From contig RPFO01000017.1 of assembly GCA_009746045.1 (NCBI GenBank), positions 445,001 to 509,000 of the forward strand: a stretch of 64,000 nt of DNA, in the 5' to 3' direction. Numbering within the stretch: position 1 is the first letter of the stretch; the number at the start of each line of letters is the position of its first letter. This stretch comes from Mesostigma viride (lineage: Eukaryota > Streptophyta > Mesostigmatophyceae > Mesostigmatales > Mesostigmataceae). Below are positions 6,268-40,600 of the stretch, in pieces. The notes below the pieces were generated by a model, which was given only the letters and a program-made list of their open reading frames with translations, was not told the DNA's origin and did not search any database. Position numbers and translations under genes: made by a program.

Positions 6268-6800
6268 TCGTGTAATCCTTGCCAGTGTCTTATTAGGCAC
6301 GGTCAGCTACTGAAGCTTGTCGAGGGAGCACCTTTGGGTGTCAAGCACCATGATGGTGGGATCAAGTATGCCAACGAGATGCCAAAGTCGTTTTTTACTT
6401 TGCTGCATGTCTCACTTTTGCACACGCATATCGTGTGGATCAGGTGACCAAGCCAGAGCATTCACGTGACGAGGTGAATTTTAAAGCCTGTCGATCTGGT
6501 TATCTGTGAGGCTGGCAAATGATTGCGACTTTGAACATACCTGGACATAAATTCTTGCAGGGAGTCCCCTAAACTCTGTTGCATGCACGGCAGCGGAGCA
6601 CATGTATGGTTTTGCATGTTGCACATACGAGTCTGGTTGATCATGTAAAAAATATCTATGGAGCAAATAAAAACGTGTGTTGCTAGCAGTTTTGACCGCC
6701 GTAAAAAGCGCATCTGTAGTTTCCAATGCTCCTAGAAATCAAGCGCAAAACTGAATGCATTTGCCTGTGTCTTACATATACTCATTATCATTATTATTTT
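6268..6800. other. Intergenic, downstream of TRP-like gene
   Basis: No gene seen. The right end is AT-rich (ATTATTATTTT near 6790-6801) and abuts the 5'-truncated LINE. Confidence 0.5.
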
Positions 6801-9146
6801 GACTTCCCTGAAAAATGCGCCCACAAGCGCGCCGCAGAGGCGTTCGTCGACGCGTTGGACATCCCGGCCAGCCACGCCCAGCTGTTCGCTGCCGGCCCGG
6901 CATCGGCCCTTTGGCACCTCGCTGACAAGCTGCCCGCGGCCGGGGCCCTACTGCCCCCCCGCCGCCCGCCCCGCTTCACCAGCCTGCACCGGCTCCCCGC
7001 CGTCATCCAGGCCCGGCAAGCCCTGCGCGACAACAGCGACCCCGCCCGCTACGCCCGCCTCAAAGCCGATTACCACTCGGCCATCCGGCAGGCGACCAAG
7101 GAGCAGGAGGCCCTTCATGTCCGAGAGTACTTCGCCCACCTCAAGGACCAGCACGGCAAGTACGCCTGGACCCGCCTGCGTCACGCCCAACGGCCCGCCG
7201 GCGGCGCGCAGCCGGCGCCGCGGACGCTCTCTGGCTCACCGCAGCAGCAGCTCGACCAGTGGTATTCCTCCCAGTCCCGGCTGCTCGGCGCCCCCCCGCC
7301 GCCTCCGCCGCTTGGCCCTCTGGCGGCCGCACGCCTGGCAGTAGCACCTGCGGACGTCCCTGCGCCGCCCACGCCGCCCGCCGCTGAGCAGGACTACACG
7401 TACCCAGCCCTGACGGAACCCCTGGCCGGCCCCAACGAGCTCCCGCCGTTCACCGAGCTCGAGCTGAGCACCGCCGCCAAGCAACTCCGCTTCTATGCCG
7501 CCGTTGGACCTGACCAGCTCCCAGCCCCGGTGATTAAGCTGACGGCGCTCACAGGGTTCCTGCTTGACGTCTGCAACCGGATCCTGCTTGCCGACGCGCC
7601 GCCGATTCCTGAGTGGCAGCACAGCTACCGTATTATGCTGTACAAAAACAAAGGTTCCCCTGACGACCCCGCCAACTACAGAGGAGTGTGCATCCAGAGC
7701 GCCGCACTTAAGTTGTTCATGCGCATGATCCTCAACCGCCTTCGTTCTGCTCTCGACTGTCACCTTGGGGAAAGTCAAATGGGCTTCCGTCCTGGGCGCA
7801 ACACCGTCATGGCCATCTTCGTCGCGCGTCGCCTCTTCGAGGAAATCGCTCTCCTGCAACCTGGTGAGTTTCCCGCAATCTTGATCTTCGTCGACTTCAT
7901 CAAGGCTTTTGATTCTGTCCTCTGGGACGCTCTATGGGCTGTACTTGCTCGCGCTCGCGTCCCCACTGCCCTGATTACCGTCATCCGCACGCTGTATGAG
8001 GGGTCGACCACTTCGGTGCGCACTCAACACGGCATTACCCCACCATGCCCACTGCAGACCGGCGTCTGGCAGGGTTGCGTCCTGTCGCCGTACCTGTTTA
8101 TTATTGTAGTGGATTATGTTATGCGCCAGGCACGTGCTCGCTTTGCTAGCATTGCAGGCCGTGCCCCTGGCCTAGCGATCACGAACGAGCTTGGGGAAGG
8201 GGGGCCGACTAACAAGCAGAATTTACGTCTAGCTGACCTCATTTATGCCGACGACATCACGCTCATCGAGAAGCCGGAGTCTGCCCAACTTTGGCTGGAC
8301 TGCCTGGCGCTCGAGGCTCGGGCGGTTGGTCTAGAAATCAGCCCCAAAACGGAGGCCCTGGCCCTCGGCATGGCAGGGCCCCCACCCACACTCCGCCTCT
8401 TAGACGATGCGGAGGTCAACTACCCTCCTTCAGGCCGCTTCAAGCTGCTCGGCAGTTGGCTTCCCGACTGCGAGGACGACATGACGACACGGATCGGCAT
8501 GGCGTGGGCGCACCTCCATGACCACCGCCGCTGGTGGAGCAACCCCGCCCTACCCCGGATCGTCAAGCGTGACCTCTTCAAGGTCGTCATTCTGACGATC
8601 CTGACCTACGGCGCCGAGACGTGGGCACTGACGCAGGAGCTGGAGCAACGACTCGACGGCGCCGTCACCAAGATGCTGCGCCAGGCCCTTAACATCCCCT
8701 TTGGTTTGCACATTAGTAATGAGGATTTGTACGCTGATTTGCCCTATGTTTCCCACATTATTAGGCACAGGCGCCTGGGCCTAGCCGGGCACCTGGCCCG
8801 CACAGATCAGGTAGATACATCAGATAGACTAGCTGGCACCAAGCCCGCCCAGCCTGGGCGATATGTCCTCACCTGGCGTGCCCCCGGCCGCGCGCGGCAG
8901 GGTCGCCACCCGTGGACTTTTCGTGATAGACTCGGCATGGACATGTGCTACACTAGACGTGACGGGCTCACCCCCGGGCAGCCTCCTGGTTTGTCTGTAA
9001 TATGGAGGCAGATGGTGCGCAAGGATAGATGGCAAGTAGTGATGAAGGAGACCACCCCCAAGCCTGTGGGGGCTCCGCGTGTGACCAAGTATGGCATTCA
9101 TAGCGATTCGGGCCGCGGTGCCCACACCCCTGTAACTAGGACCTAG
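6726..9146 (+). CDS. LINE reverse transcriptase (ORF2 fragment without endonuclease)
   Basis: One uninterrupted 806-codon frame. The first ~25 residues come from flanking DNA. Residues ~26-240 are the basic, Ala/Pro-rich linker usual between endonuclease and RT. RT motifs follow in order: YKNKG..PANYRGVCIQS, the fingers motif QMGFRPGRNT, motif A FVDFIKAFD (388-396, first catalytic Asp at 390), GVWQGCVLSPYLF, and motif C YADD (507-510). A C-terminal region with RHRRLGLAGHLARTDQ follows. All three catalytic Asp are present and there is no stop, so the RT could be active, but without endonuclease this copy should not move by itself. ATG at 6726 is only the first in frame; a natural start is not evident. 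Confidence 0.85.
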   Translation: MLLEIKRKTECICLCLTYTHYHYYFDFPEKCAHKRAAEAFVDALDIPASHAQLFAAGPASALWHLADKLPAAGALLPPRRPPRFTSLHRLPAVIQARQALRDNSDPARYARLKADYHSAIRQATKEQEALHVREYFAHLKDQHGKYAWTRLRHAQRPAGGAQPAPRTLSGSPQQQLDQWYSSQSRLLGAPPPPPPLGPLAAARLAVAPADVPAPPTPPAAEQDYTYPALTEPLAGPNELPPFTELELSTAAKQLRFYAAVGPDQLPAPVIKLTALTGFLLDVCNRILLADAPPIPEWQHSYRIMLYKNKGSPDDPANYRGVCIQSAALKLFMRMILNRLRSALDCHLGESQMGFRPGRNTVMAIFVARRLFEEIALLQPGEFPAILIFVDFIKAFDSVLWDALWAVLARARVPTALITVIRTLYEGSTTSVRTQHGITPPCPLQTGVWQGCVLSPYLFIIVVDYVMRQARARFASIAGRAPGLAITNELGEGGPTNKQNLRLADLIYADDITLIEKPESAQLWLDCLALEARAVGLEISPKTEALALGMAGPPPTLRLLDDAEVNYPPSGRFKLLGSWLPDCEDDMTTRIGMAWAHLHDHRRWWSNPALPRIVKRDLFKVVILTILTYGAETWALTQELEQRLDGAVTKMLRQALNIPFGLHISNEDLYADLPYVSHIIRHRRLGLAGHLARTDQVDTSDRLAGTKPAQPGRYVLTWRAPGRARQGRHPWTFRDRLGMDMCYTRRDGLTPGQPPGLSVIWRQMVRKDRWQVVMKETTPKPVGAPRVTKYGIHSDSGRGAHTPVTRT

Positions 9147-12105: not shown

Positions 12106-15100
12106 TTACAAGGTGGCAAGGCGCTTCTTCATCTCCGCAACCATATCCCCCATGGCCACGTCCTCTTCCACCCGGTCCGCCAGGTTCTTGAATTTTACAA
12201 CACCCTTCTCCAGTTCATCACCTCCAAATATGATCTGCTCAGCATGACAGCGTCCCGCAACGGCACCAGGCATGAATGTACCGATCATGTAAGTAATAAA
12301 GGCTTCGCAATCCCCGCACGTGCGACCACTTTCGTGCTGCCTGGGGACCCGTAGGAGGTCGTGCCGATGATGGAATAGCATGCACGGACCCAAGAACATG
12401 CAATAGACAGCATTCCCCTACGCCCCCCCCCATACCACCACCACCACCAACAACAACCCCTCACCCCCAATAATCTTGACCGTGCCAGAAGGCATCCATT
12501 TTCTCACATCCGACCTATCCCAGGGAGACAGTTGCAGATTTCATGCACATCTGGTGGCCGGGGCCGGCTGGCCATAACACATGGCGGGTCACGACTGAGT
12601 ACCTGCTTCCCACCTGACCATCCACCCATCCACTAGCCAACCTGACTGTACCACATGACCACCTGCTAACGCACTTACAATCTAGCTGACCGCGCACCGC
12701 CAATGCACGAACTATAACGAACTCCCGCTGCTAGCGCACGCACCATCCATGGGATCCCGTTCTCCAGGGCATACGTGAGCTGCTTCTGCATGTTGGGCGA
12801 CGCCGCATAGCCAAACTCGGCCTTGATGCCCGCGGCCCACAGCTGCGCGGCCACCTCCATGCGCTTGGTCAGCATGTCCGCGCCGATGCTGGCGACGAGC
12901 ACTTGGGTCTCGGTGGAGCGCACGAGGGCTGACGCGGCGCGCTCCTTCTCCTCCAGGATGGCAAACACGCGCTCGATGCCTAGCGATACCCCTACCGCGG
13001 GCACCTGGGGGGGGGAGGGGGGGCGTTGGGGATGGAGATGGAGATGACGAACGCGATTGCGATTGCGATTGCGATTGCGATTGCGATTGCGATTGCGATT
13101 GCGATTGCGATTGCGATTGCGATTGCGATTGCGATTGCGATTGTGATTGCGATTGCGATTGCGATGGTGATGGTGATGGTGATAATAAACATCATGCTGA
13201 TAATACCCAGGTGCCAGCACATGCCTCCATTCTCGCGTGCTCAGAAGGAAGGCAGCGATGACTACCACCACAGGGGGTAAAAATCCAGGAAAGAGCAACA
13301 GCAGGCATGGCGGCATGGGCGCCAATAGTGCTAGTGCCCGAGGCTTGCAGGGTGCCTGGAAGGGCTCCCACACCGCAGTCCTAAACCACTCTGCTCTACC
13401 TCAGTCCTAAACCTACTGCAGTCCCTAAACTCCACTCCTAGCAAAACTAGGCCGCACCTGCTTGCCGCTGAACATGCCAACGAGGTTGTCGTAACGGCCG
13501 CCAGCAGCGATGGAGCCCACCTGCAGGTGAAGCCCAAGCATGCCCATACAGCACGATTCATGTGTTCTACTATATCAATGAGACAACCAGCGCAGGCCAG
13601 CAATCGGGAGAATCCGGACCATGGCAACTCGAGCCTGCCGTTATCTTATCCGCATTTTTGAATCGTTCAGGATGATGGATGTGAATGGAGATGGAAATGT
13701 GTAGCCTTGTTCATTGAAATGAATTATGGCTTGCTAACGCTAAGAGCGACTAAATGACCAAGACGGTGGGGCCAGAAACATCTTGCGTGATCAGGGCGTG
13801 AGTTTCGAGCCTAACTGGCCGGGGGTGTCTAGTGGTGAGCACCATGGCTGCGATCGCTGCATGCAGGCGTTATGTATTCAACGGTACCGCGAGCACCAGA
13901 TGATGAAGTAGGGGCACCTACCAACAGGGCAAAACAGGGAACCAACAAACGGGCGCGAGACATTTAACCACATCGGAGGTTTGCCAGCGTGCAGCGATTT
14001 CACCAGTCAATCGGCTGTGGCGCAAAGCAACAGGATGCATATGGGGCCGTCGCATGATGTGCGACAGTGCCAGGTGCCAGTAGCGTCATCCCGTGCGATC
14101 CTGCCTGCGATCCTCTGTAACTCTGTCCATGTATATACAGCGCTGACACTCTGTATGGCTCGGCAGCAAGCCAAGTGCACAGCAGGCGGTGGCCATGGAT
14201 GAAAGAGCTCAGATCTATGCCTGGAAAAGAGGGCATGAGCGCACCACACAGGCTGGTAGAGCAAGGTGCGTGCTGATGACAGCTGGCATCTACGCGCCGG
14301 CCTTACCAGCGACTCCCCCTTGAAGATGGCTTCGTAGATGACTCCGGTGTAGTAGTCCAGGCCCCTTGCCAGGCTGAGGCACGCGCATCCAGGGGACAGG
14401 TAGACAGACCCGCGATTCATTGCACGCGCACGCCAGTTCCATCGGGAACAGGCCTCTCACTAGTTGGGTTAGTGGCGGAAGACAGACTACAATGGCACGG
14501 CGATGGGTCAACACGTTTCCGACGTCAGCCCCCACATGCCCCCCACATCCCCCCCCCACTCCCCCCACATGCCCCCCACATCGTGCATGTTCCCCACCCC
14601 CACCCCCCACCCCCCTTGAACCATCGCCACGGCAAGGCCATGGACCAGGCCATGAGGCCATCCCTGGGAGGACTACACCTGTCCATCCCTGGGCATGCCA
14701 CACAGCACTAGGGACGGACCACAGCGTGCTCTTAAGCCCTACAATGGTTGACGCATGGCTCATGCGGCCGCCGGTGCTCATTTTAGACTTTCTTGCACAG
14801 CCGGCCCCGCCCCGGCAACAAATCGCAGAAGCCGGGGGCCCGGGACAGCCGCAAGGTTCCCGGCGCCTGGGACCATATATTTGAGGGGACCCGAGGGCCC
14901 TTGGAAGCTCAGTTTCTCTGTCAGAAAGTCTATTGGAGGGTCAGTTTGCCTAGCGCCCGCCACAATTTTGGGTGTCAGCCACCAGAAGTTACCAACGTCG
15001 TTCATCTTACACGAAGGTGCAGTGAACTGTCTAGCGCCGAAGTAATACTTGTCGGTCTACCAACCTATCAGCACATCTTCCCTGCCACGGCAATTATAGG

Positions 15101-18100: not shown

Positions 18101-20845
18101 TATGTGAGCCCCCCTCACCTGGTCGGCCAGGTCGTAGATGAGCTTCGAGTCTTCGCCATACTTGCCCGTGAGCGTCTCCTTGAGCTCGAACACGGGCGTC
18201 TCCAGCGACACCGCGCCGTGCCGCTTGAAGACGGCCACGATCTTGTTAAAGGCGCGCTCACGGATCGCCATCTGGTCGGGCATGAAGTCTCGCGTGCCCT
18301 GAGAGGTGCCGTGCAGTGTGGTGCCGTGTGACAGCAGACACGAGGAGCACAGAGGAGAGAGCCAGGGAGCATGGGGTATTAACAACTACGGCTTCCCAAG
18401 GCATGCCCCCCCCCTCCCCCCCCCCTGCCCCCCCTTTTTTTTGAAGACTTCACGCAGAGCATGGCATGAGCAGAAGTGGGCGGTGGGTGGGTGGGAGGGA
18501 GGGAGGGAGGGAGGGAGGGAGGGAGGGAGGGAGGGAGGGAGGGAGGGAGGGAGGGAGGGAGGGAGGGAGGGAGGGAGGGAGGGAGGGAGGGAGGGAGGGA
18601 GGGAGGGAGGGAGGGAGGGAGGGAGGAGGGAGGGAGGGAGGGAGGGAGGGAGGGAGGGAGGGAGGGAGGGAGGGAGGGAGGAGGGAGGGAGGGAGGGAGG
18701 GAGGGAGGGAGGGAGGGAGGGAGGGAGGGAGGGAGGGAGGGAGGGAGGGAGGGAGGGAGGGAGGGAGGGAGGGAGGGAGGGAGGGAGGGAGGGAGGGAGG
18801 GAGGGAGGGAGGGAGGGAGGGAGGGAGGGAGGGAGGATTTGTGGCGGGCGGTGGGGTGGCCGGACAGGCGGGGGGACACCAACAAGAGGCAATGCAACTT
18901 GACTGTGTGACGGAGGACGGAGGACGGAGGCACTGCCCCACAAGAACACAAGCACACACGCAGTTGGTCTATATATGGCCAAAGCACCCCCCCCATTTTC
19001 CACCTCCCCCTAGTCCCCGAGCATCGCACTTCAGGCTATGTGCATTAGGCCATGTGCTTAAGTTCTGTGCATTACACCATTTCCCTCTCCAGGCCATACC
19101 CTTCATGTCACATGCATCGCCAAGCAACATTTTCCTGATCCAACCCTAGCGGGGTCGCCTTGCCAAGTCGCCAAGCCATGCCCGTGAACCGCGCGCACCT
19201 TGGGGATCTTGGGCTTGCGCCGCGCCGCGTTGCTCAGCAGGCACTCAGACACCGCGTCCACAAACTGCTGCAGCGAGGTAGACCGCAGGCGCAGGCACGG
19301 CTGCGCGGAAGACAGGCCCGCCTCGGTCAGCGCGATCACGCCACCTGTCGTGCCGCCATCCACCGCAGCATCCCCACTCCACGCCTTGGCGAGGTACTCC
19401 TTCAGCATGGCGCTGCCCTTGCCGAGGACAAGGCCCCCAACCGCCCCCTTCCTAGGGGCCGCTTTAGCTGCTCCCCCCTTGTCCTTGTCATCAGCAGTAG
19501 CTGCTCCCTCTGGCTTGGCACTTGCGCTAGCGGGCGCGCCTCCGCCGACACGTGCCGCGATGGCAGCTTCCCTCGCGGTCAGCAGCGTGAAGGATGCCAG
19601 CGCCTCCGCGGCCAGTGCTGATTCCGCTGCCACCACCGCCGCGCCCGCCTGCTTGCCCGCCAAAGTCCCGTCGGTGGCATCCCCGACTGCGCCCAGGGCA
19701 CTCTGCGCCCCGTCCACTAGAGTTTGCAGACGCGGCAGCAGCGCCTGCGCGTCCCCTTGTGCCTCTGCCTTTATCGCATCCAACAGGGCGGCGCACCGCT
19801 GGAGGGAGCCGGTGACGGAGGCGCGCAGCGCATCGGTCAACCGCGCGGCTGACGAGGCAACCAATGGGGCGCCGGCGACCGCCTCCAGCGGTTCGCCAGC
19901 AGCGCCCCCCTTGCCGGCGCCTTTCTCCGGCTTGGGCTTGCTGCCCCGGCCGCCAGCCTTTTCCTCCTTCGGGGCCGCTGCGGCTGCTTCCTTGGCCTCG
20001 GATGCTGCCTCTGCCTGAGGGCCCGCGTCACCGACACCGCCGCTGTTTAGCTCAGCATGGACGTACTGCATCGCCAGACGGGAGGACTCCCTCACGAGGC
20101 TGTGGGTCTGGGGGATGGCCTTGACGGCGGCCGGCGTGCTCCCCCCCTTCTTGTTGTTGCCCACGCATTTGGAGCCCTCAAGCAGCCCGCGCAGGCTCGC
20201 GGCTACCTCGATCTCCGCCTTATGCTTCTGCTTCTTCTCCTCGAATGTTCCAACGGTGGATTGTAGCGCCTCGCACGTGAGCGCCGTGACGGCGTCGGAG
20301 GCGTCCTGTAACACGCGGGTGTCACGGACCGCAAGGGCTGTCGTGCCGACGGGCACGCAGCAGCTGAACTGCAATGCCGCCCGCTCTGCTTCCGTAACTC
20401 CTGGAGAAGACAGGGAAAGCCCAGCCAGTGCGGTTTCCAAGGAAGAACCTGCGCATGCGCCTACGCCGCTAATAAGTGCAATCAAAGCAGCCACGGTCTC
20501 AGCCTCATTGACGCCGGCCGGGAATGAGGGAACAACGCCTCCATTAAGCAAGCCGGCGATATACTTTGGCAATTCTGGCCGAATGCCAGCCCAGCCTTGC
20601 TGCATCAGCTCTACCGTCAATGTAAAAAGAACGGCTCTACATTCACTGTCTGACAATAACACCTTGTTTCCGAGCACATCCGGGGCCGCAGCCGCTATAA
20701 GGGGTTCCGGCTTTGCGTTCAACGCGCTAAGCCCTGCAGGATCTAGCTGAACTGCGTGGCCCAAAACGGCCACGGCGTACACATCGTCAACCGTGAGACG
20801 AGCGTTCCCACGCCCTCCAATAATTACCCGCCCCTTGGCCGCCAT
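12106..20845 (-). CDS. HisRS: Histidyl-tRNA synthetase, cytosolic plant type (complete)
   Basis: Attaches histidine to tRNA-His. Eight exons on the minus strand, all GT-AG and all phases fitting: 20845-19199, 18298-18119, 17723-17460, 15851-15502, 14373-14307, 13520-13458, 13004-12744, 12234-12106 (TAA). The product is 986 residues. Residues 1-~545 form a long N-terminal extension starting [11 protein letters not shown], with an Ala/Lys/Gly-rich linker near 270-330; plant cytosolic HisRS has a comparable extension. The catalytic core then reads KPKIPK-GTRDFMP (motif 1 region), [33 protein letters not shown] (motif 2, in two parts here), [10 protein letters not shown] (HisA), [13 protein letters not shown] (HisB), GVSLGIERV (motif 3), then the anticodon-binding domain (TQVLVASIG onward). 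The extension exon is 1647 bp; the core exons are short. No transit peptide is obvious. Confidence 0.92.
13053..13164 (+). repeat. (GATTGC)n hexanucleotide array, HisRS intron 6
   Basis: About 18 copies of GATTGC, ending in GATGGT variants, inside the intron 13005-13457. Confidence 0.95.
14775..15201. mobile_element. MITE-like insertion in HisRS intron 4
   Basis: TGCTCATTTTAG at 14775-14786 is perfectly inverted at 15190-15201. The 427-bp interior is non-coding and full of GGCCCGGG-type palindromes. No exact target duplication is adjacent, though GCGGCC occurs on both sides. Confidence 0.4.
15344..15512 (-). repeat. Duplicated 5' splice sites, HisRS intron 4
   Basis: The true exon end/donor (TTCGACATGAG|GTGGGT at 15502) is followed inside the intron by further copies near 15454 (TTCGTCATGAG|GTGGTG), 15393 (TTCGACATGAG|GTGGGT, identical) and 15352 (TTGACATGAG|GTGGGT). 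Confidence 0.85.
15881..16839 (+). repeat. 12-bp minisatellite, HisRS intron 3
   Basis: About 80 copies of GGTTGTTGGTGT with a single common variant (GTGA for GTGT), giving two interspersed unit types. Because the period is a multiple of three, long frames run through it on both strands; none is a gene. Confidence 0.97.
17283..17470 (-). repeat. Duplicated 5' splice-site units, HisRS intron 3
   Basis: The donor region of exon 3 (CTTCGAG|GTGGGTGGGGC at 17460) is repeated downstream in units of about 80-90 bp: near 17382 (CACGTTGAA|GTGGGTGGGGC) and near 17302 (CACGTTGAG|GTGGTTGGCGC). The sequence between copies is also related (TTAGTAC/CTAGTACGCG spacer). Confidence 0.7.
18490..18836 (+). repeat. 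(GGGA)n array, HisRS intron 1
   Basis: About 347 bp of GGGA with two one-base phase slips (near 18626 and 18681). The transcribed strand (minus) is TCCC-rich, so the pre-mRNA carries a long C/U tract. Confidence 0.97.
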
Positions 20846-21822
20846 TATCGCAGCGAGTGCAATGGGAGCAATGCGAGTGCCAGTTCGTCACCGCCAGGCA
20901 GACGTCAATAAATACGTCGTGTCGACGAAAGGCCTCCTACTGCCGCCTGCAGCCATCTCAGAGTGCCGTGCCCCCACGTGGCGCCTCGATGGAAACCAAA
21001 AGCTAGCAGTGAGACGGAAACCAAAAGCTAAGCTACACTGGCTATCCGCACTCCACAGGTACACCCGCCCCCCCACGTTTCAGATTGGGGTCCGACCAAT
21101 CCAGGGCTCATGATCTTAAAGAATCTTACTACTGTGATTCGATTCTACTAAGTTCTACTAAATTCTACTACAATTATACTACTAGTAGAGGTCAAATCCA
21201 GGGGCTCATGATCTTAAACCTGAGAATCTTAAACGTGGGGGGGGGGGGGGGGGGGTGTACTGAACCCCCGGCGCGGGAATAAACTCAACTCAACTAAAAA
21301 AAAAAAAAAACTCAACTCAACTCAATTCCGAAGGTAAACTCAACTCAACTTCGCAGGCGTGGTGGGCAACAACAACAACAACAACTTCGCAGGCAAGCCA
21401 AGTGACATGTACGGCACAAGTCACAACGGCCGTACCATCAGCAACAACCATCGGCTCGCTGCCCAGCGCGCCGCGTGCTGGTCCAGGCGGTCGCACTAGG
21501 CGCCCGGTAGCACGGCGCGGCGGCCGCCGCCCGCGGCCGCGGGCCCCGCCTTACTGTCCCTGGCCCGGTTGCCTTGACCTCGAGGCCGGAGGCCCCGAAC
21601 GATATCCCTGCATCAGGGGTGACATCCAGCCTATTTCACGTCCTTCCTAGTCCGTCGTAATATTGTTCAAGATTTGGACGGTCGGAGTGAGCGCTTCATC
21701 TGTCAGTTCAGTTCAGTGTTCTTACCAAAATTGAAGTCACTCATGAATTGCGGCTTCCGTCCGACAACGGTCATGATCGTCGGGCGGCACTGAAATTCCA
21801 AACCCCCACTCACGGAGGAGGG
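20846..21822. promoter_or_regulatory. HisRS upstream region and simple repeats
   Basis: A TATTTAT box (minus strand, 20908-20914) lies about 65 nt upstream of the HisRS ATG. Further out are a two-fold GGAAACCAAAAGCTA repeat (20990-21030), two copies of a GGGGCTCATGATCTTAAA-like segment (21105 and 21205), a G16-type run (21236-21255), A-runs and ACTCA pentamer repeats (21285-21350), and GC-rich DNA to 21600. No gene seen. Confidence 0.4.
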
Positions 21823-27785: not shown

Positions 27786-30110
27786 CTAACTACAACATCT
27801 ATCTAGACAGCCTAACGATGCCCTAGGGGAGCTGTCTGGCGTGCCTCCCACGGGTTTGCACACGCGGGCGCTTCCCCACAGGGCCGGGGGGGCTCGTTGT
27901 CCTCTATGACCTGGGCCCACGTACTTGGCCTTGTCCATCATCTTCTTCCAAATCACGGAGAGGCCTAGGCCCCCCATGTCCTCTACTAGCTGTTCTTTGA
28001 AGGTGCGGGCCTTGCGGCGTCTAACATCAGGGGGCCCTGCCCACGTCAGGAGGTGCCGGCCATGCTGAGCTGGTCGCAGTCCTGCGGGGGGGCCGGCCAC
28101 GTGAGGTGTCTACCTGGTTGGTGCGAGCTAGGTGCCCTACAAGCTGCAGGCGCCGCTGCTTAATATGGTGCTGGTGATATATGGCATGCCCTGGTACAGG
28201 TCCTCATTGCGGACATGAGCAGCATATCCTACTCTGAAAATGGAACGCAGCATGTTGGTGACCGCGCCCGGCGTCCAGCTTGCGGGCCAGGTCGGCGGTG
28301 ACTGAGGGTCCACGTCTCGGCCCCATACGTGAGAACAGGAAGGACGAGGACCTTAATTGAACAGGTCCTGTTTCTCGATCTTGCCCAGGGGCTAGCTTGC
28401 GCCACAGGGCCCGGTACTGGCGTAAAGCGTGCCAGGCCTAGGGAGATGCGATGGTCCACATCGACCTCGCAGCTGGGGAGCAGCAGGCTGCCCAGCAGCT
28501 TGACGCGGTCCCGATACAGGACTTGAGAGCCGTCGAGGAGATAGAGGGGTGGCGGTGAGTGGGTGAGCCCAACCGCCAGGGCCTCTGTCTTCTTGCTGAC
28601 CTCAAGCCCCACTGCCCGAGCCTCGATAGCCAGGCAGTCAAGCCATGTCTGCACGTGCCCAGTGTCCTCGAAGAGGGTGGTCATTGGTGGTGTCGTCTGC
28701 GTAGATTCATGATGTCTGCCAGCCGGATCTCCGTGTTCGCTCCGCCATGCCAGAATTTGTTAGCAACCTGCACCCCTGGTTCCCTACCCACGATGCGGGC
28801 AAATCGCTTGCGCGCCTCAGTGAATCATTACGTATTCGACCACATTAATGAACACGGGTAGGGCGACAGCACGCAGCCCTGCCACACACCCTTCTGTAAA
28901 GGGCATGGTGGCGTGGTCCCGTAAGAAGTGCGCACCGAAGTGGTGGACCCTGAAGCATACAGGTTGCGGATGACAGCAATCAGGGGGCGGGGGATCCGGA
29001 ACAGCTCGAGGATGTCCCAAAGCGCAGGCCAGAAAACAGAATCGAGCGCTTTGATGAAGTCCACCAGCACAAGGTGCAAAGGGGACTCACCAGGCTGAAG
29101 GCGTTGCAGTTCCTCCACCAGTCGGCGAGTAGCAAAGAGCGCCTGTACTGTGTTGCGACCTGAACGGAAGCCGTGCTGAGTCTCGCTGAGGTGACCGTCC
29201 AGGGCCGTGCGCAGGCGGTTCAGGATGAGCCGCATAAGAAGCTGGAGGGGGGCACTTTGGATGCACACCCCTCTGTAGTTGCCGGGGTCGGCTGGCAACC
29301 CCTTGTTCTTGTACAGCATCGTGCGAAAACTGTGTTGCCAGGCCGGCCGCTGGACGTGGTTGCGACTTCTGCTGTCGACGGTCGACAGCAGAAGGCGGTT
29401 GCAGATGTCCCGGGAGAGCAGCATAACACGGTCCTGTGTCCTCGAATTCGGCTGCAAGTTTTACAACTGCGGCAGGAATCTCGTCAGAGCCGGTGGCTGC
29501 GTCATAACGCAGGCGCTGGACCGCCTCCGTGACCTCGCGAGAGGTGAAAGGAGGCATGTCAGACGGGTCGCCAAGTAGGCCGACCAGCGGGGTGACTACT
29601 AAGGTAGTCCGCCGCTGACCTAGGCGGGGGCGGGGGCCCAGCGGGGCCGGCCAGGGCCGGGCCGGGTGGGCGGCGGCCCGGCTGGGAGCAGGGGCGGGGG
29701 CGGCACAGCTGTCTCCACGACCTCGGCCGTGGCCGTGGCCCAGGTACGAAGCCGCTTGGCTGGGGCGCCGGGGACGGCGTGGCGGTGGGGCCGGCCGAGG
29801 CCGTCCGGGTGCCCGAGGCGCTTGTACCAGAACCAGGCCCCCTTGCCGTCGTGCTTCTGCTGGCAGCTGCGCAGGTCCTTGACCATCTGCTGAGCATCTG
29901 CCTTCTCAGCCTGCTCGTAGGCGGCCCTCAGAGCTGCTTGCAGCCCAGGTTTGGCGATCGGATCTCTGTTGCGGCGGAGCATCTGCCTGGCGGCGACCAC
30001 TGTCGGTGCGTGACGGTGGACAGCAAGCTGTCGGCGCGGAGGCAAGGTGGGGATCGAGGGTGAGGGCAGCCAGGCGATACTTGGCAGCGACACCGCGGAG
30101 GATCACTGAT
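27786..30110 (-). mobile_element. Degenerate LINE (family B), minus strand
   Basis: In minus-strand order: linker region (30093-29620, with RQMLRRNRDP and GAWFWYKRLGHPDG), RT start (29557: SREVTEAVQRLRYDAATGSDEIPAAVVKL), RT core (29457-28828: YKNKGLPADPGNYRGVCIQS, QHGFRSGRNT, motif A FIKALDSVFW, GVWQGCVLSPY), motif C TACGCAGACGAC (YADD) near 28697 but out of frame, then palm/thumb (28684-28229) and the C-terminal GLSVIWKKMMDKAK block (27980-27900). Several frameshifts; dead copy. Confidence 0.8.
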
Positions 30111-30873: not shown

Positions 30874-32192
30874 GTAAAACCAGAGCTTTTAGTGGTAAAA
30901 CTATTGTGAACAGGAACTAGTGGTAGCTAGTGGATCCTAGTACAGATTGATAATGGCACACTCGCTCCACGTCCATGCAGCTGACGGTCAGGCATAGCCG
31001 ACCACATGCACCGACTTCATGGTCATGTTGCTGGAAGCGGACGTGACGCTCCCTGTTCCAATTTTAGATGTGCATGGGCGGCGCGCGTGTGAGCCTGACT
31101 GATCTGACCAAGAAATGAAGATTGATAACACTGGCGATTACTATATGTGTCATTCAACACAAAAAATAATGCAATCTTCAATCTTTGGGGACAAATCAGA
31201 TAAATCACAACGGCAAATGATCTTGAAAGGTCCGAAAAATTCTTGCAAGAATATTGCATGCGTCAATATTGAACAAACTTCGCTGTACACAGCAAGAGCT
31301 CAACAGAACTCTCAATCTCAAAGCACCTGCTTCGAAAAGCATTTCAAGACAATCCCTGGAATTACCCTTTTGAGGTTGTCCGTCATGGATATGCATGTTG
31401 AGGACTGAAGAGGACTCACTGCAGAGAAACAAGCAGCAAAACCACATAAAACACCATTTCACAATTCCATATCAGCCAGAACCTATGCAGAATTATTTTC
31501 CCATCCAACTTATCCGACATTCCCTGCGCCCGTACAATATATCCGACAGTCACGCACATAAAAAGCAGAAAGCAGAACATAAGTGCGAGAAGTTAACATG
31601 GCGCAAAAGCCGCCATGCATCCGAAAAACAACAGGACATGTGGCACCGTTTAAGCACATTAATTACCCGTCCTCCCCTGCAACAAGCAATCTGTCAACAA
31701 TCTACCGGAATACTGGGATAAATAAGTGCTCAAAAACACAGCTCAGATATACAATTGGAAATTTGCATGGGACAAGCAGCATCCCATCCCCTACCGGAAC
31801 GAATCTCAAAACACCAACCTCAAAAACACAGCGACCTTGAGGAACAGGGAGGGGATAGGTATCAGAATATGGCTGCAAGTGACCCATTTAGAGGCGGGAT
31901 GCAGGCGTATAATAGCGATGATACAACCAGACTCAGAAAGACAACCAGACGCAGACGTGTAATATACTTAAATACTAGTATTCATCAATAATGGATACTT
32001 ACACGAGTCATACAGCATCAAAACAATGCAGGGAAAAGAGACAAACAAGAGAAAGTCCAAGCCAGCCAAAGGACGTGCATTATATATTATACATGTATCA
32101 ATACTACACAAATTGGATATCAACGAGATGAGCTGGATGTCATGACATGCCCCCATCTACACATTGAAGGGAAAACCTGCAGCGGTGCCGCG
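30874..32192. other. Intergenic, no gene seen
   Basis: AT-richer than the surroundings. Short frames show no domain. The right part precedes the likely SelW polyadenylation region. Confidence 0.4.
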
Positions 32193-32437
32193 TTACAGAC
32201 TCATCCCCTTTTGTTGGAATGCCAAGTCATTCCTGCCGCAGGACCACAGCCTGCTGTGATAGAAAGCAGCGGTATTAGTAGCCAACAATGTGAATGAGGC
32301 TGAAGTTGTATCGATCATAAGGGAATGGCCAACAATATATAAATGATTCGTCGATCATAACGGTAATGAGCTCAGCCACACCACACTCACGTGAGCTAGC
32401 CGGGCTGCAAGCCTGTGGTGAGGAACCCTGGAGCTCC
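32193..32437 (-). promoter_or_regulatory. SelW 3' UTR with candidate TGTAA signal; SECIS expected here
   Basis: TGTAA (minus strand, 32193-32197), the usual chlorophyte polyadenylation signal, lies about 240 nt after the SelW stop. A eukaryotic SECIS hairpin (ATGA...AA...GA) should sit in this UTR for UGA to be read as Sec. Several ATGA motifs are present (near 32230, 32315, 32355), but I could not fold a convincing canonical SECIS by eye. Confidence 0.35.
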
Positions 32438-35400
32438 CTAAGGCAGGGACTTCAGGATCTCCTGAAGTTTCTCAAAGATGAAGTTGATGTTAGATGAGTC
32501 CACCTGCATTGCCGTCCAGTGTACAGGGCAAACGTCAAGACGTACGCACCGGTTTGTGACAATGTGTTAAGCCTGCAAATGAATCCTGTGCCGCCGTGCA
32601 CCATCGATCCAAGCGTAGACTGCGCCTAGAGGAGATAGCGTGTCGTAGTCCAACCACAAACTGTAAACAAATGCATTACCAGGCCAAGAGCCACGAGGAG
32701 CACAGAGAGCCAACAGGAACTCGCGGGATGCGCACATGGGCAGGTGCGTGTGGAAGCTTCTCCGCGGCAGAAGCAAACACTTTAGATAGGAAAATGCAGA
32801 TTCTGGAGCACGCTCCCTGACGCACGATGCCATGCTGGCCTTAGGGCCTCCCCATCGAGAACTTGCAAAAATCTAGTTACATGGTGGCTAAAGAGAGACC
32901 CTAAGACCGAGGGGGGAGAGGGAGCACACAGGCGCCAAGGTAAACAAGCCAGCAGGCTGGGCAGCTTCACTCCAGCTAACTGCAGTTTGCCATCACGCAA
33001 CCGCTGCCGTGCAGTGTATATCTGCCTGCCCTTTTACCACCTTATAGCCTCACCACATAAGTTAACATTTCTTCTCCGACAAGAGAGCACCCATGACAGG
33101 GACAGAGCGTCCCGCCATAGTTTAGACAGTATATTCCTTCAAAAATGGAGTTGTAGCGCTCAAAATCTCACACATCAAGGGGCCACGACGAATCTTTGAT
33201 GTGGCATGCGCGTATGTCGTGTGTGCCTGGGCCATGTCGCCAAACCGACACGGATGCTTGAAGGAAATTACTACACATACAATAATACTACATGAACTAG
33301 AGCCGACACTCGTGTGGCTACAATGCCTGGACATCCGGGCAAGATCAAGCCAAGGCCAGCCCGCCACCACCGTCCCAGGGTACTGCTTGGCATGGATGGC
33401 ATGTAAGCCAACACCAAACGACAACTCCAGCCTCCCTACCTCTTCTACCGTGAACTAGTTTCCAAGATTGGCAAGAACATAGTGGCGCCCGCGCTTAGCG
33501 CGCACAGCACCGCACACAGATGCCTGGCATGGTGCCCAAGAACAAATGGGAGAACCGCTCCTGGATTCAAGCCAGGAAAGTGGCATTCTACTTAATGCTA
33601 ATTCTTCATACCGCACATTCTTCATAGTGGTACTTTGACAAGGGTGTCACTTACATGGCCACCCCCGTTCTTCTTTGAGTGCAGCTGCACCCTGGAGCCA
33701 TCGGGCAGGATGGCGTCCACCTCTGCAGAGCAAAAGGTGAGTGTGCCATGTGGCATCCCATCCACCCGTCAGAGTCCAATGACCACCACAACGCAAGATA
33801 GAACAACATGATGATCTACGAACAACAGACACGTGTCGGCCTCTTGCATGAGGACACCAAAAACTCTGCCACGCTCCCTCTATTCAGATGTACCCATCTA
33901 GGCAAGCATCCGCCTATCGGGATGTACCCATTTAGGCAACATTTAGGCAAGCATCCGCCTTCTCCCATTTACACAAGCATCCATGACATGCGGACGAGCA
34001 CCAGGGTTTGCACCATGGGTGGAGGACTGCCAGGGTGCGCACTCCCATCCATGACGGACAACCACAAAACCTCCACAAAAGAAACATCCCACCACACCAC
34101 AGGGGAGCAATGGAGGGTTAGTGCGGCCATCGGAGGGAAGTTCGGGTGAGAACGGCAGCAACACCTTGCCAGTCGGCCTCTTGCATGAGGACACCAAAAA
34201 CTCTGCCACGGCAGCAACACTTTGCCAGTCTCAGACATCACGGTGTGACCCCTTGGGTCAGGGAATCATGGACTACTGTCAATCGACACCACATGCAGGT
34301 CTAGGCCCTTCTTTACATGATGAGGCGATGCCGACTAGCCACATACATTGCTACACACACAATCGCCCCCCCCCCCCCCCCCCGAGAGAAAAAAAAAAAG
34401 GAACCAAAAGGAAAACACGACAAAGGGGAAAAAAAGGGGGGGGGGAAATGCTAAAAAAGCACTCCAACCCCTACCCCCCTCCCACCTACCCACACCACCA
34501 CGACACACACATCTGCACCTGTGCAATACCCTGAGCAAGCACGACCAACGGTCACAAAACACGAGGCACGAGGTGGACCACGACGAGCCAGGAAGATCAC
34601 CGCCACGCCTAGCTAGAAAGATTGAACCTGAGGGCTACACTCACAAGGGCAGCCTCACGCTGTCAAAGCCTAAAGAAGCTGCCACGTGGCACCCACTCAC
34701 CAAAGAAACCGCTGACACCTGGGGTGGACTGGGCATCCTGCACAGGGTGGTTGTAGAACCAAGGTGTTGATACAGTAGAGTAGGGGTGGGAGAGGAAGCG
34801 TCTGAGTCGGGGCCATCAGCCGGGCACTCATGTAGTCACATGGCCACGCTTGCGAATGCCACGAACTGCAGCATGTGACATGCCGAGCAGCCGTTTGGCC
34901 TTGCACCCGCTACCACCATCAGTCTCTCGCCAAATCCCTTGCCAAAGTCCCTGGGGACAGGGTGTGTACAGGTGGAACCAGGTGCGACGCTACTGACCCG
35001 AAGAAACACGGGCAGTACAACAATAACTTAGAAACAACAGAGTACTCGTTAAATAGAAGCTACTCGTTCAATAGAAGCTGCGTGCACTCTCAAGGATGCA
35101 TAGCCGTTGGTGGACCGTGTGTTAAGTTTGTAGTATATTCATGGGGTAACCTAGGAAGCATGCCCTGCTGCGGGCTCCAGCCCGCAATGCACCGACCACA
35201 TGAATGCACAGGGATGCCAAGGGAAGAGGGGGGGGGGGGGGGGGGGGCAGGGGGAGAGCCTAGGCTTCCACTCGCTGAGAGGCGAGGGTGCACAACCAGG
35301 AAAAAGATGGCCGGCTACCTGCTGTCGTCCGACATTCGTGGGCATTGTAAGCAACATGGTTGGGCGCCCACACAACGCGCTCTTGCTGTGACAGACGCAC

Positions 35401-37027
35401 ATACGGGGTAGAGAAAAACCAGCGAGGGGCCCCCCTTTCGCCCCACATGATGTCAAGGAGACAACCAGCGCATGATGTGGCTAATTTGTGGGTGGGTGAC
35501 GGAATCAACATGCCATGCCCACCCATGCTTGCTTAGGCCACACGAAACCTGCCTGAGTGGCGAATCGCGGGCACACAGGTTTGCGGCTTCCGTCAGGCCC
35601 TAAGAAACAGGCGAGATTGCTTTGGTATGCACACACATGCTTTGATAGGCACACGCATGCCTTGATCGGCACCCATGATTCCACAGCTGTCTACCTCGTT
35701 AAATCCATCGCAACACCCTTGCAACCACTCAGGTCACAGTGCTGCGGACCCTTTCCTGCCACTCCGCGGAACACAGCACCACATGCAGGACCTCTCAACT
35801 GGAATCGACACACATGAGCCCTTTCATTCAAATGATGGCACCCGAAGCTTCCTCAAGCGATGAAGGTGTGCCCACGTAGCAAGCGATGAAGGCGTGCGCA
35901 CGTATCCAGCGATGAAGGCGTGCGCACGTAGCCAGCGATGAAGGCGTGCGAACGTAGCAAGCGATGAAGGCGTGCGCACGTAGCAAGCGATTAAGGCGTC
36001 CGCACATAGCCAGCGATGAAGGCGTGCGAACGTAGCAGGCGATGAAGGTGTGCCCGCGTAGCAAGCGATGAAGGTGTGCACACGTAGCAAGCAATGAAGG
36101 CATGCCAATAACGTTCCAACGAGGACAGGGCTACCTTCGCTTGCACAGTAAGTTGCGACACATAATATGTAGGCCATGGGAGTCGACCCTGCCACCCACT
36201 CCTCCCATGATGAAAGCTAAATATTGCTTCATCTTCGCCTAGAGCTGCCTGTGCATGGCTGCTGCTGATGAACCCTATTTGGACGAGTTGACGGCAGCGT
36301 CGCTGTCAACTGAGCGGAAGGCAACTTACGAATTCAAATACGCCCGAGCCGAACTTGGCGATCAGGGCATTTTGGAGTGCCCTGACCTTGCTCATATAAC
36401 CTGGGAAAAATAGCGGTGCAGATCCGGCAGATTTACATTAGAAAGAAAGTATGGTTATCACCTGGTGCGCCCGAGCTCAACTGCGACTACCCAGACAACA
36501 ATAAGATATTCAGGACTTTTTTTCTTTTTTTGCAACGGAAGGAGCAAGCGTTGGGAGCGCCGCCCCACTAACGAGCAGCAAACTACGTCCTCGCCTCCTT
36601 GTCGCCCTGCCACATGGCGACAAGACAAAACAAGCCTTACCTCATCCACCGCTGCAGCAAATTTGACCGTGCCGAGGAAGATTGCGCGGTGGGGGTAGTG
36701 CACGCGTCCAATAGCGGTATTGACGCGTTGACATGATGAGTTTGCACCATACGCACGCAGAGCCGAGGAATTCACAAAAGAAGTTTTGCAAACACTTCGT
36801 GATTTGGACAGTGAATCCGGCACCTGCCATATAAAGATGAGACTATTTAGCAAGAAAATCACGTTGGCTGCCTTAGCCGGTGAGGAAGGAGCTGCCTGCA
36901 GCCGCAAGGCAACATCACGAATTCCCAAAACCGAGAACACTGCGGAAAAGTTTCGCAAATCAAGCGTGGGCGAACCAAACGGAAACGCTTACCAGTAGAG
37001 AACAAAGATCTTCAGCTTGGGAGCCAT
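32438..37027 (-). CDS. SELENOW: Selenoprotein W (UGA = selenocysteine)
   Basis: Small thioredoxin-fold (Rdx family) redox protein, cytosolic. Six exons with perfect phases: 37027-36993, 36651-36641 (11 nt), 36400-36330, 34737-34701, 33722-33655, 32503-32438 (TAG). The product is 95 residues. It starts MAPKLKIFVLY; the split codon TG|C plus the micro-exon gives C-G-G-U, so the redox motif is CxxU at residues 12-15, with the Sec codon TGA at 36642-36644. Then GYMSKVRALQNALIAKFG (helix 1), STPGVSGFFEV, LPDGSRVQLHSKKNGGGHVD and a C-terminal helix ending EKLQEILKSLP. The TPxxxGFFEV and HSKKxGxGxVD blocks are SelW hallmarks and the length is typical (85-100). If TGA were a stop, the peptide would be only 14 residues, yet 80 well-conserved residues follow, which argues for recoding. 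Other Rdx members (SelH, SelT) fit less well. Confidence 0.9.
33835..34240. repeat. Direct duplication in SelW intron 4
   Basis: A segment around CTCTTGCATGAGGACACC continuing AAAAACTCTGCCACG occurs at 33840-33874 and 34174-34209. GGCAGCAACAC.TTGCCAGTC is also doubled at 34153 and 34209. Confidence 0.7.
34365..34445. repeat. Homopolymer cluster in SelW intron 4
   Basis: C17-type run, then A-rich and G-runs in close succession. Length is likely variable or uncertain in assembly. Confidence 0.8.
35855..36110 (+). repeat. 26-bp minisatellite, SelW intron 3
   Basis: About ten copies of AAGCGATGAAGGCGTGCGCA plus CGTAGC, with point variants. Intron 3 spans 34738-36329. Confidence 0.92.
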
Positions 37028-37629: not shown

Positions 37630-40600
37630 ATGGCATTATTTTCCGTACGGCCGGCTGCACTCCTTGTGAAACCTAGCACCGGCACTAGCATTGGACAACG
37701 TTCCTTGCGTCTGCAGGAAAAGCCCCAGAATAAATGCATTACGGTCATGGCAGCGACGTTGCCAAACTCCGCAATGACCGTCCACCGTGCAGCAGTAAAT
37801 AAAGATGTTGGCAGAAGCGAAGCTGTTGAGGCGCTAGAGGCCTTGGAAAAGGCTCCCGTGCCCGTCACAGAGCAGGACGTGCAGGGGAAATGGCAATTGG
37901 TTTTCTCAAGCGCAATGCCATCATTCATGGCGTACATTCCAGGTAATTGCTTGTTGTGCTGAGTACGAAATCAGCTTTAAGCACACTTGGCGGCCTAGTG
38001 GTATATTTGGCCTATATAGCAATAGGGAAGATTCCCATCTGCGAAAGCTGGTTACCTCTCTGCTGGTGTACTCGTGTTCCTCTTAATGCCCGCTGGTGCC
38101 TTGCTCCGACATTCTGGATTGTAGCTAACGTCACCCTGCAATAGCATCGTTATAGAGCAGAATTAGCGCCCCTTCGTCACAAGATAACAACGGGTCAACT
38201 CTGACTTGTACCTCAGCCTCTTAGGGTTCCTAGGTTTGGCCAACGATCGACCTGTTCCAGGTTTGACGCCGTTCCCGGAAATGCGTAGCGTACGTCCGAG
38301 TTCTTAGGATCAACTTTCTACATAATGCGGGTTGTGGCTGCCTCAAGATGCGGGCCTGTGTATCTGATTAGCCCTAAGTGCTGCGCTGAGTCCTATTCAG
38401 ACTGTGGTGTTCAGAGATCTCTGTACAGATAAGTATCACGAAGCACGTAGGCATGGCCTCTGGCCAATGTTCTGGCGAAATAGCACTTTTGCCGTACAAG
38501 CACAGGTATTCCAAGAACGGCCTACCAGGAATGGCCATTTGTATGCCGGTGACGTACATGCTTTCCTTCACTGGAGGCAAGTTTTGCTGCTGAGGACCTT
38601 GGCAGCTACCTTCCTGCTGGCTCCCGTTGCTCCACGCATGGCACTGTGTTAATGGTTGTCATTGGACCCGGCATTGCTTGGCTTTATTGCTTCCGGTCGG
38701 GCCCGGCATTGCTGTGTGTGGTCACTTCCTGTTGAACCTGGCACTTGCTTGGACCCGGCATTGCTGTGTGTGGTCACTTCCTGTTGAATCTGGCACTTGC
38801 TTGGACCCGGCATTGCTGTGTGTGGTCACTTCCTGTTGAACCTGGCACTTGCTTGGACCCAGCATTGCTGTGTGTGGTCACTTCCTGTTGAACCCGGCAC
38901 TTGCTTGGACCCGGCATTGCTGTGTGTGGTCACTTCATGTTGAACCTGGCACTTGCTTGGACCCGGCATTGCTGTGTGTGGTCACTTCCTGTTGAACCCG
39001 GCACTTGCTTGGACCCGGCATTGCTGTGTGTGGTCACTTCCTGTTGAACCCGGCACTTGCTTGGACCCGGCATTGCTGTGTGTGGTCACTTCCTGTTGAA
39101 CCCGGCACTTGCTTGGACCCGGCATTGCTGTGTGTGGTCACTTCATGTTGAACCTGGCACTTGCTCGGACCCGGCATCGCTGTGTGTGGTCACTTCCTGT
39201 TGAACCTGGCACTTGCTTGGACCCGGCAGCGCTGTGTGTGGTCACTTCCTGTTGAACCTGGCACTTGCTTGGACCCGGCGTTGCTGTGTGTGGTCACTTC
39301 CTGTTGAACCTGGCACTTGCTTGGACCCGGCGTTGCTGTGTGTGGTCACTTCCTGTTGAACCTGGCACTTGCTTGGACCCGGCGTTGCTGTGTGTGGTCA
39401 CTTCCTGTCGAACCCGGCACTTGCTTGGACCCGGCATTGCTGTGTGTGGTCACTTCCTGTTGAACCTGGCACTTGCTCGGACCCGGCATCGCTGTGTGTG
39501 GTCACTTCCTGTTGAACCTGGCACTTGCTTGGACCCGGCAGCGCTGTGTGTGGTCACTTCCTGTTGAACCTGGCACTTGCTTGGACCCGGCATTGCTGTG
39601 TGTGGTTACTTCCTGTTGAACCTGGCACTTGCTTTGGCCCGGCATTGCTGTGTGTGCTCACTTCCTGTTGAACCTGGCACTTGCTTGGGCCCGGCTTTGC
39701 TGCGCCCTGGCGTCGGCACTTTTCACCCTGGTTGGCAGTGAACGAGAACATCACCATCTCGACGCGGGACAACCTGATCAAGCTGGAGACGGACGTGCTC
39801 CCGTTCGGCCTGCTCACAATGGGGTTCCAGGGGAGCGTGAGCTGGGAACAGGACGGCAAGATGAAGTTCATGTTTGAGAAGATGCAGGTGCGATAGGTTA
39901 TTCCCGGGGTACTTTTCTTGGTCTCCTATGTATATCTCACTATTCCCTGTCACCTTTCCCTATTTTATCATATCCCTAATGCCCAGGTGTGCGATGTAAT
40001 CACATGGCCATGCTGTTTTGGATTGATGGCCTCGCGTATGGCAGCGAGGTGGCTCAATTGTTTGTGGTGACCTGCACAAGCAGATCCTTGCAAGGCTTGG
40101 GTGGACCTATCGGAGAGTTTGGTGCTGCCAACGCTGATAGCGATGGTATACGTGCCAGTGTGGATCCTGCAGTTGCTCAAATGGCTGGGGCGGTGCCCGT
40201 CTGCCCAGCTTTATGGACTGTGCTGGGGGAGTACAACCCCAGATTATGCCACACGACTGGCGGCATCCTGTGAGTCGTTCACGAATAAGTCCAGCCGCTT
40301 GTTACTATTGAAAGGCCTTCCATGAACAGCCGCGCACGCAACCCCAAGCCACCTTTCCGGCATTCTGAACACCCGGCAGGGAGTACCTACACTCTCCTAA
40401 TCGTGAGTCTGTACAATTCCTATCACGCTAAAGTACTGTTGGCTCCTGGTAGAACGTTGATCCATCAGCTGGCCTCCCCAGTCGGTGGATGTCGCACGGT
40501 GGGGCGTGCGTGTATAAAGCCGTGGTGAATAACTGTTGCTTGTGCTGCCACTCGTGCACCCACGTTGCCACGCGTGCATCGGACCGCGTGTGTGTGTTGC

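Follow-up and report, generated by a model that had tools for sequence, protein, structure and literature searches.

The selenocysteine codon of a Mesostigma viride SelW gene very probably lies on an 11-nt micro-exon

Exon joining in the Mesostigma viride window (the whole stretch of 64,000 nucleotides that was analysed) gave a complete SelW gene on the minus strand, at 37027-32438, with the following six coding exons.

36993..37027, minus strand: SelW exon 1, coding part, 35 nt; MAPKLKIFVLY followed by TG of the Cys codon; donor gtaagc
36641..36651, minus strand: SelW exon 2, the 11-nt micro-exon CGGTGGATGAG; acceptor ctgcag, donor gtaagg
36330..36400, minus strand: SelW exon 3, 71 nt; starts GT TAT after ..tttttcccag
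34701..34737, minus strand: SelW exon 4, 37 nt; placed by exon joining, with a boundary common to the public gene model
33655..33722, minus strand: SelW exon 5, 68 nt; holds the conserved HSKKNGGGH stretch
32438..32503, minus strand: SelW exon 6, 66 nt coding; stop TAG

The interval to which the initial annotation had assigned the gene, 36330..37027, is correct to the base but spans exons 1-3 only; the gene extends to 32438. All five introns are of the GT..AG type, with the donors gtaagc, gtaagg, gtaagt, gtgagt, and gtaagt in order and lengths of 341, 240, 1592, 978, and 1151 nt. The two introns that flank the micro-exon (341 and 240 nt) are the shortest in the gene. A 26-bp tandem array of 9.7 copies (35854-36105) is located within intron 3, and a 52-bp tandem array (38702-39702; 19 copies, 96% match) lies ∼1.7 kb upstream of the start codon.

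The spliced gene has 95 codons in one frame, and its sole in-frame TGA is codon 15. The predicted product is MAPKLKIFVLYCGGUGYMSKVRALQNALIAKFGSGVFEFDAQSTPGVSGFFEVDAILPDGSRVQLHSKKNGGGHVDSSNINFIFEKLQEILKSLP. It scored above the curated cut-offs for both Pfam Rdx (PF10262; 35.5 bits versus 22.6, E 1.1e-8) and NCBIfam SelT/SelW/SelH (TIGR02174; 42.4 bits versus 34.2, E 6.3e-11), and it matched the solved SelW structure 2npb (E 1.9e-8). The earlier naming of the gene as SelW agrees with all three of these matches, and at the level of sequence its assignment to SelW (SelT/SelW/SelH, Rdx) is confirmed by the domain scores. A tblastn search of the window revealed no second SelW copy: apart from the five larger exons, every match had an E of at least 0.54. 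Scans for SelW in viral contigs gave no confirmed relative.

The micro-exon at 36651-36641 reads CGGTGGATGAG and is flanked by ..ttgctgcag and gtaaggcttg. Exon 1 ends in ..CTC TAC TG, followed by gtaagc, and the sequence across the two junctions is ..CTCTACTG-CGGTGGATGAG-GTTATATG.. The joined codons TG+C, GGT, GGA, TGA, and G+GT encode C-G-G-U-G, and the phases 2, 1, and 0 close. With the micro-exon in place, a CxxU motif followed directly by G-Y, YCGG(TGA)GY, appears near the N terminus of SelW. Each element that had been described here at the outset, namely an exon 1 ending in TG, an 11-nt segment between CTGCAG and GTAAGG, and an exon 3 beginning GT TAT, was found in place. The description of the UGA as standing alone on this segment was inaccurate: the micro-exon contains the last base of the Cys codon, the whole of Gly-Gly-Sec(UGA), and the first base of the next Gly codon, that is, the redox centre. 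A length of ≤15 nt, AG/GT borders, and closing phases, the features of a spliceosomal micro-exon, are all present at 36651-36641. When the micro-exon is skipped, TG joins GT (CTCTACTGGTTATATG) and the frame shifts, with a stop after 33 codons; direct joining of exons 1 and 3 removes Sec, as had been predicted.

A scan for other ways of closing the frame between exons 1 and 3, leaving out sites <40 nt from the ends of the region, returned 75 AG..GT exons of ≤120 nt. Twenty-five of these were free of stops, and CxxC was encoded by 0 of the 25. Six frame-closing exons produced a CxxU with a single TGA; they share one acceptor, 36652, and a GTRAG donor is present in the 11-nt exon alone. Across the 592-nt stretch that separates exon 1 from exon 3, there are just two GTRAG donors: that of exon 1 itself and that of the micro-exon. 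The claim that only this piece closes the phases and brings out the motif stands in the form that, among the pieces of ≤120 nt tested, it is the only one to do so with a consensus donor. Pairing of this donor with U1 was calculated at −10.1 kcal/mol, the second best among the five coding donors. The pyrimidine tract of the acceptor is weak.

To what extent such an exon could arise by chance depends on the stringency of the pattern. The window contains a single match to the pattern YAG-[CT]GG.GG.TGAG-GTRAG, which none of 100 window shuffles reproduced, and a loose 11-nt pattern with a GTRAG donor matched once against 0.04 expected. The region between exons 1 and 3 (592 nt) was also subjected to 20,000 dinucleotide shuffles: an 11-nt exon of the form seen in the family (G-G or G-A) never appeared, whereas a loose AG-CxxUG-GT exon of 11 nt, with any xx and bare AG/GT, appeared in 51 of the 20,000. 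A weaker null was provided by 1500 random 592-nt stretches drawn from the window, the SelW locus itself included: 36 of them (∼2%) allow a YCxxUGY exon with bare AG/GT and the right spacing, and 187 of the 1500 allow some CxxU exon. The micro-exon is more than a chance occurrence, although the broad null is less impressive.

Relatives of the product were assembled as a set of 132 records that includes the best 120 of 859; the queries held the motif, and the set is neither unbiased nor independent. Another protein search for SelW relatives gave 15 proteins. Within the set (best 120 of 859 included), the motif Y-C-x-x-[W/C]-G-Y is present in 106/132 records, 97 of those 106 have W at the Sec place, and exact YCGGWGY, the commonest active site there, is found in 59/132. 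The W at the Sec place would represent a TGA read as Trp by the gene caller. Comparison with SelW homologues favors the micro-exon, which encodes the commonest active site among these 132 relatives, the best 120 of 859 included. The other 26 of the 132 (again with the best 120 of 859) lack the motif; 13 are fragments or mispredictions at the N-terminal side and 13 are variants, five with a second W in place of Cys, five changed beside the motif, and three without the residue at the Sec place. The first five, the SelW-like records P0059, P0085, P0088, P0097, and P0104, read YWGxWGY. If both W residues stand for UGA, these would be SelW proteins of the UxxU type, which is reported from Ostreococcus lucimarinus and amphioxus (PMC7539508). 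The same source counts SELENOW among the algal selenoproteins with the widest distribution. P0003, P0017, and other relatives share with the Mesostigma protein the YCGG(W for UGA)GY motif, membership of the Rdx family, and the HSKKNG stretch. In contrast to the Mesostigma gene, their motif seems to be contiguous in the DNA and read through in one frame. The Mesostigma protein has 4-5 additional residues before HSKKNG (within VDAILPDGSRVQL, exon 33722-33655) when compared with 12 aligned sequences.

Downstream of the coding region, a SECIS-like element and a possible intron were located on the same strand.

31326..31397, minus strand: SECIS-like element (AUGA..AAAA..UGA), Rfam RF00031; its core AUGA starts at 31386
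31419..32390, minus strand: possible 3′UTR intron; begins with the donor gtgagt, 47 nt past the stop, and has the acceptor ttctctgcag

The core is 1051 nt past the SelW stop in genomic DNA. The match to RF00031 scored 23.6 bits against a gathering score of 35 (E 0.12 for a 1.8-kb stretch searched with all Rfam families); with E up to 10 admitted, the 64-kb window contains no other SECIS match. A plain RNA fold of this stretch was no more stable than those of its shuffles (z +0.37). Because the score is under gathering and the fold is no stabler than shuffles, the element is suggestive, not proven, as the putative SECIS of SelW. If the possible 3′UTR intron 32390-31419 is removed, 322 nt would separate the UGA from the SECIS core, which would then lie 32 nt inside the final exon. 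A tRNA search of the window returned none.

The locus is very probably an ordinary, functional M. viride SelW gene in which the C-x-x-U centre is divided over three exons and the 11-nt micro-exon provides Gly-Gly-Sec. Weighing against this reading are the SECIS score under gathering, the weak tract at the acceptor, the ∼2% obtained with the loose null, and a deposited gene model, considered below, in which the acceptor at 36652 is unused. The micro-exon would be included in essentially all productive mRNAs. Constitutive inclusion is assumed because its donor is strong, its flanking introns are the shortest, and no CxxC was found among the 25 stop-free alternatives of ≤120 nt. An mRNA without the micro-exon would be a frameshifted dead end. 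The flanking introns are probably removed one after the other, since an exon of 11 nt is hard to bind at both ends at once; a like view of micro-exon splicing has been put forward (PMC8831610). At the ribosome, the UGA at codon 15 would be read as Sec through the downstream SECIS. Only 1 nt lies between the end of this UGA and the exon 2/3 junction, and the later junctions are 72, 109, and 177 nt downstream. The usual rule for nonsense-mediated decay sets a distance of 50 nt. Control by selenium would thus mainly follow the usual route: when selenium is short, the UGA would act as a stop, and with junctions 72 nt or more downstream the mRNA would be a candidate for nonsense-mediated decay. Ordinary selenium-dependent control of this kind would not require a splicing switch. 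M. viride is reported to have a complete Sec machinery and nine selenoproteins (survey of Archaeplastida, PMC6627142). The terms “SelW” and “SELENOW” are absent from the main text of that survey, and this gene need not be among its nine.

The initial annotation had suggested that inclusion of the micro-exon could act as an on/off switch for the selenoprotein. Regulated skipping of the 11-nt exon, for example during selenium shortage, would shut off SelW, and the resulting mRNA, with its stop after 33 codons, would be degraded. Two features are consistent with this proposal, namely an exon length not divisible by three and the early stop in exon 3 that follows skipping, and there are precedents of related kinds: detained introns are frequent at plant micro-exons (PMC8831610), mammalian Sep15 undergoes skipping of an exon that ends the frame (PMC3316567), and a form of Schistosoma japonicum SelW2 without its first exon is represented by two ESTs, which its authors consider a possible artefact (PMC3828610). 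The proposal is opposed by the strong donor of the micro-exon, by the lack of any CxxC product among the joins tested, by the absence of a second copy in the window, and by the short and frameshifted nature of the skipped product. To our knowledge, constitutive inclusion is the rule for micro-exons whose length is not a multiple of three. The 4-bp micro-exon of MPC1, also not a multiple of three, is reported to be constitutive (PMC9929638). Judged from the splice sites and joins at this locus, constitutive inclusion is likelier than a switch, which we regard as very unlikely.

The sole protein match to the spliced product was the EukProt entry jgi/Mesvir1/8181/Mv24074-RA.1 (95% identity over 91% of the query), a model of 167 amino acids that could be rebuilt letter for letter from the window. 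Its boundaries equal those of the six-exon gene, the donor at 36640 included, save for one acceptor and one added exon.

36843..36860, minus strand: acceptor region of Mv24074-RA.1 (..tgctaaatag), which replaces the micro-exon acceptor and gives an exon of 202 nt, 36842-36641
36462..36486, minus strand: extra 25-nt exon of Mv24074-RA.1, from the rebuilt model

These two differences (36842-36462) add ∼70 residues, and the in-frame UGA is thereby avoided. Gene finders take UGA as a stop, and the micro-exon is therefore necessarily avoided by them; the 25-nt exon 36486-36462 is probably a prediction artefact that dodges the in-frame UGA. Should the model nevertheless represent a real mRNA, the 202-nt and 25-nt exons would replace the micro-exon and a SelW-like protein of 167 amino acids without Sec would be made. 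The open frame, the GT/AG sites throughout, and the deposition of the model speak for such an mRNA. Its style of naming suggests that it originated from the MAKER annotation of PMC7027972, in which homology, ab initio prediction, and transcript evidence were combined, and the pipeline probably behind it thus drew on transcript assemblies. The donor of the 25-nt exon pairs with U1 as well as that of exon 1 (−8.2 versus −8.0 kcal/mol), yet it has no G at the fifth intron base. On the other hand, the model puts ∼70 residues where 106/132 relatives (including the best 120 of 859) have C-x-x-[W/C]-G-Y, which destroys the CxxU, and it gives the SECIS-like element no role. It appears to be a wrong model of SelW, and we strongly doubt that it corresponds to a real mRNA.

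That the gene is a remnant no longer decoded as a selenoprotein, with the UGA a stop or the 11-nt piece an intronic relic, is barely credible: the SECIS match under gathering would fit, but the six coding exons and the splice sites are intact, residues are conserved across most of the protein, and the Sec machinery of M. viride is reported to be complete (PMC6627142).

The preferred reading, a functional SelW gene with the Sec codon on a constitutive micro-exon, can be set against known gene structures. In mammalian SelW genes (SELENOW/SelV), an intron is situated right where CxxU begins, so that exon 1 encodes 9 residues in most mammals, and the SECIS is carried by a last exon of its own, ∼38 nt downstream of the start of that exon (PMC3316567). 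Likewise, the first intron of the Mesostigma gene cuts the Cys codon at the start of CxxU, and the possible 3′UTR intron would put the SECIS core at a similar place, 32 nt into the last exon. The Mesostigma gene differs from the mammalian one in having six coding exons instead of five and an extra intron in the Gly codon after Sec, which shrinks the Sec exon to 11 nt. The micro-exon most likely arose when this Gly-codon intron joined the older Cys-codon intron. Exon sizes of mammalian SelW were not found in the accessible text of PMC8050258 or PMC10855570.

Broken predictions among the fish records give a hint of a small Sec exon in that group. P0009 starts at the codon after Cys, P0016 starts at FTKLK, and in P0010 an apparent pyrimidine tract runs directly into YTKLK, whereas P0011 reads IIY-W-PKFTK, joined as if G came after TG, which could reflect a false acceptor inside the exon. 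All four would fit a Sec exon of ∼25 nt that ends before Y/F-TKLK. The human gene, as we take it to be organized, agrees with a fish Sec exon of ∼25 nt. P0007, which groups with the algal records, reads ..MRI-GYG; if an intron ends at GYG, the acceptor would fit phase 1 only, the phase of the second Mesostigma intron, and the Gly-codon intron may be common to other algae. The Cys-adjacent intron is probably an old feature of SelW, although not a universal one: the entire reading frame of Ciona SelW1 is in one exon (PMC2874816), and in the records read through in one frame nothing points to introns near the motif. Mammalian SelW is interrupted by an intron at this position, and a Sec exon of ∼25 nt is hinted at by the fish records; the Mesostigma gene is thus an extreme variant of a known gene structure and not a new kind.

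In size, the exon belongs to the class of plant micro-exons of 1-15 nt, and like them, it was missed by annotation, as is often the case (PMC8831610; MEPmodeler survey, PMC11096116). Of 45 conserved micro-exon clusters, streptophytes outside Zygnematophyceae and land plants have fewer than 5, and Chlorophyta have none (PMC11096116). The word “selenoprotein” is absent from the main text of PMC8831610 and occurs once in that of PMC11096116, unrelated to micro-exons. A further paper, PMC4378016, which mentions selenocysteine beside a term for short exons, was set aside; as far as its text was available, it concerns a Volvox elongation factor and not a Sec exon. In the part of the open-access literature that was covered, with subscription papers and supplements outside the scope, no description of a Sec codon on an exon this small was found. 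The public Mesostigma model resembles misannotated selenoprotein genes, whose models skip or avoid the UGA piece in almost 22% of the transcripts examined (PMC12822975). Those cases are from vertebrates only, whereas the Mesostigma model brought in two extra pieces.

An extension of the switch idea would hold that in green algae, perhaps more widely, SelW has kept a tiny Sec exon since its splicing is coupled to selenium status. Slow, sequential intron removal would let the nucleus withhold the piece with the UGA, so that Sec-coding or frameshifted mRNA is chosen before translation; the 11 nt of Mesostigma would be the extreme of an old design, with a Cys-codon intron older than the split between animals and green plants. 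This scenario is distinctly improbable.

On the preferred reading, the selenoprotein was hidden from annotation twice, by a UGA read as a stop and by an exon too short to find. The gene presented here would be a corrected one for an early-branching streptophyte. It was in the streptophyte lineage leading to land plants that selenoproteins were later lost. If the Cys-codon intron is truly common with vertebrates, the structure of the SelW gene would be dated very deep. The locus also offers a compact test case for the regulatory use, if any, of a recoded codon on a micro-exon.

Other features were observed elsewhere in the window. A minus-strand open frame of 594 codons (19106-20887) matches the PF00221 domain of aromatic amino acid lyases (E 1.5e-18) and is a candidate PAL-like or HAL-like enzyme. 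The minus-strand open frame at 12678-13400 matches the HGTP anticodon-binding domain (PF03129, E 2e-7) and is perhaps an exon of an aminoacyl-tRNA synthetase. It contains an array of the hexamer GCGATT (13053-13165), which probably explains the sub-gathering micro-RNA matches there. Reverse transcriptase domains (PF00078) at 6720-9143 (E 8.9e-25) and 28831-29460 (E 6.5e-16) mark pieces of retroelements.
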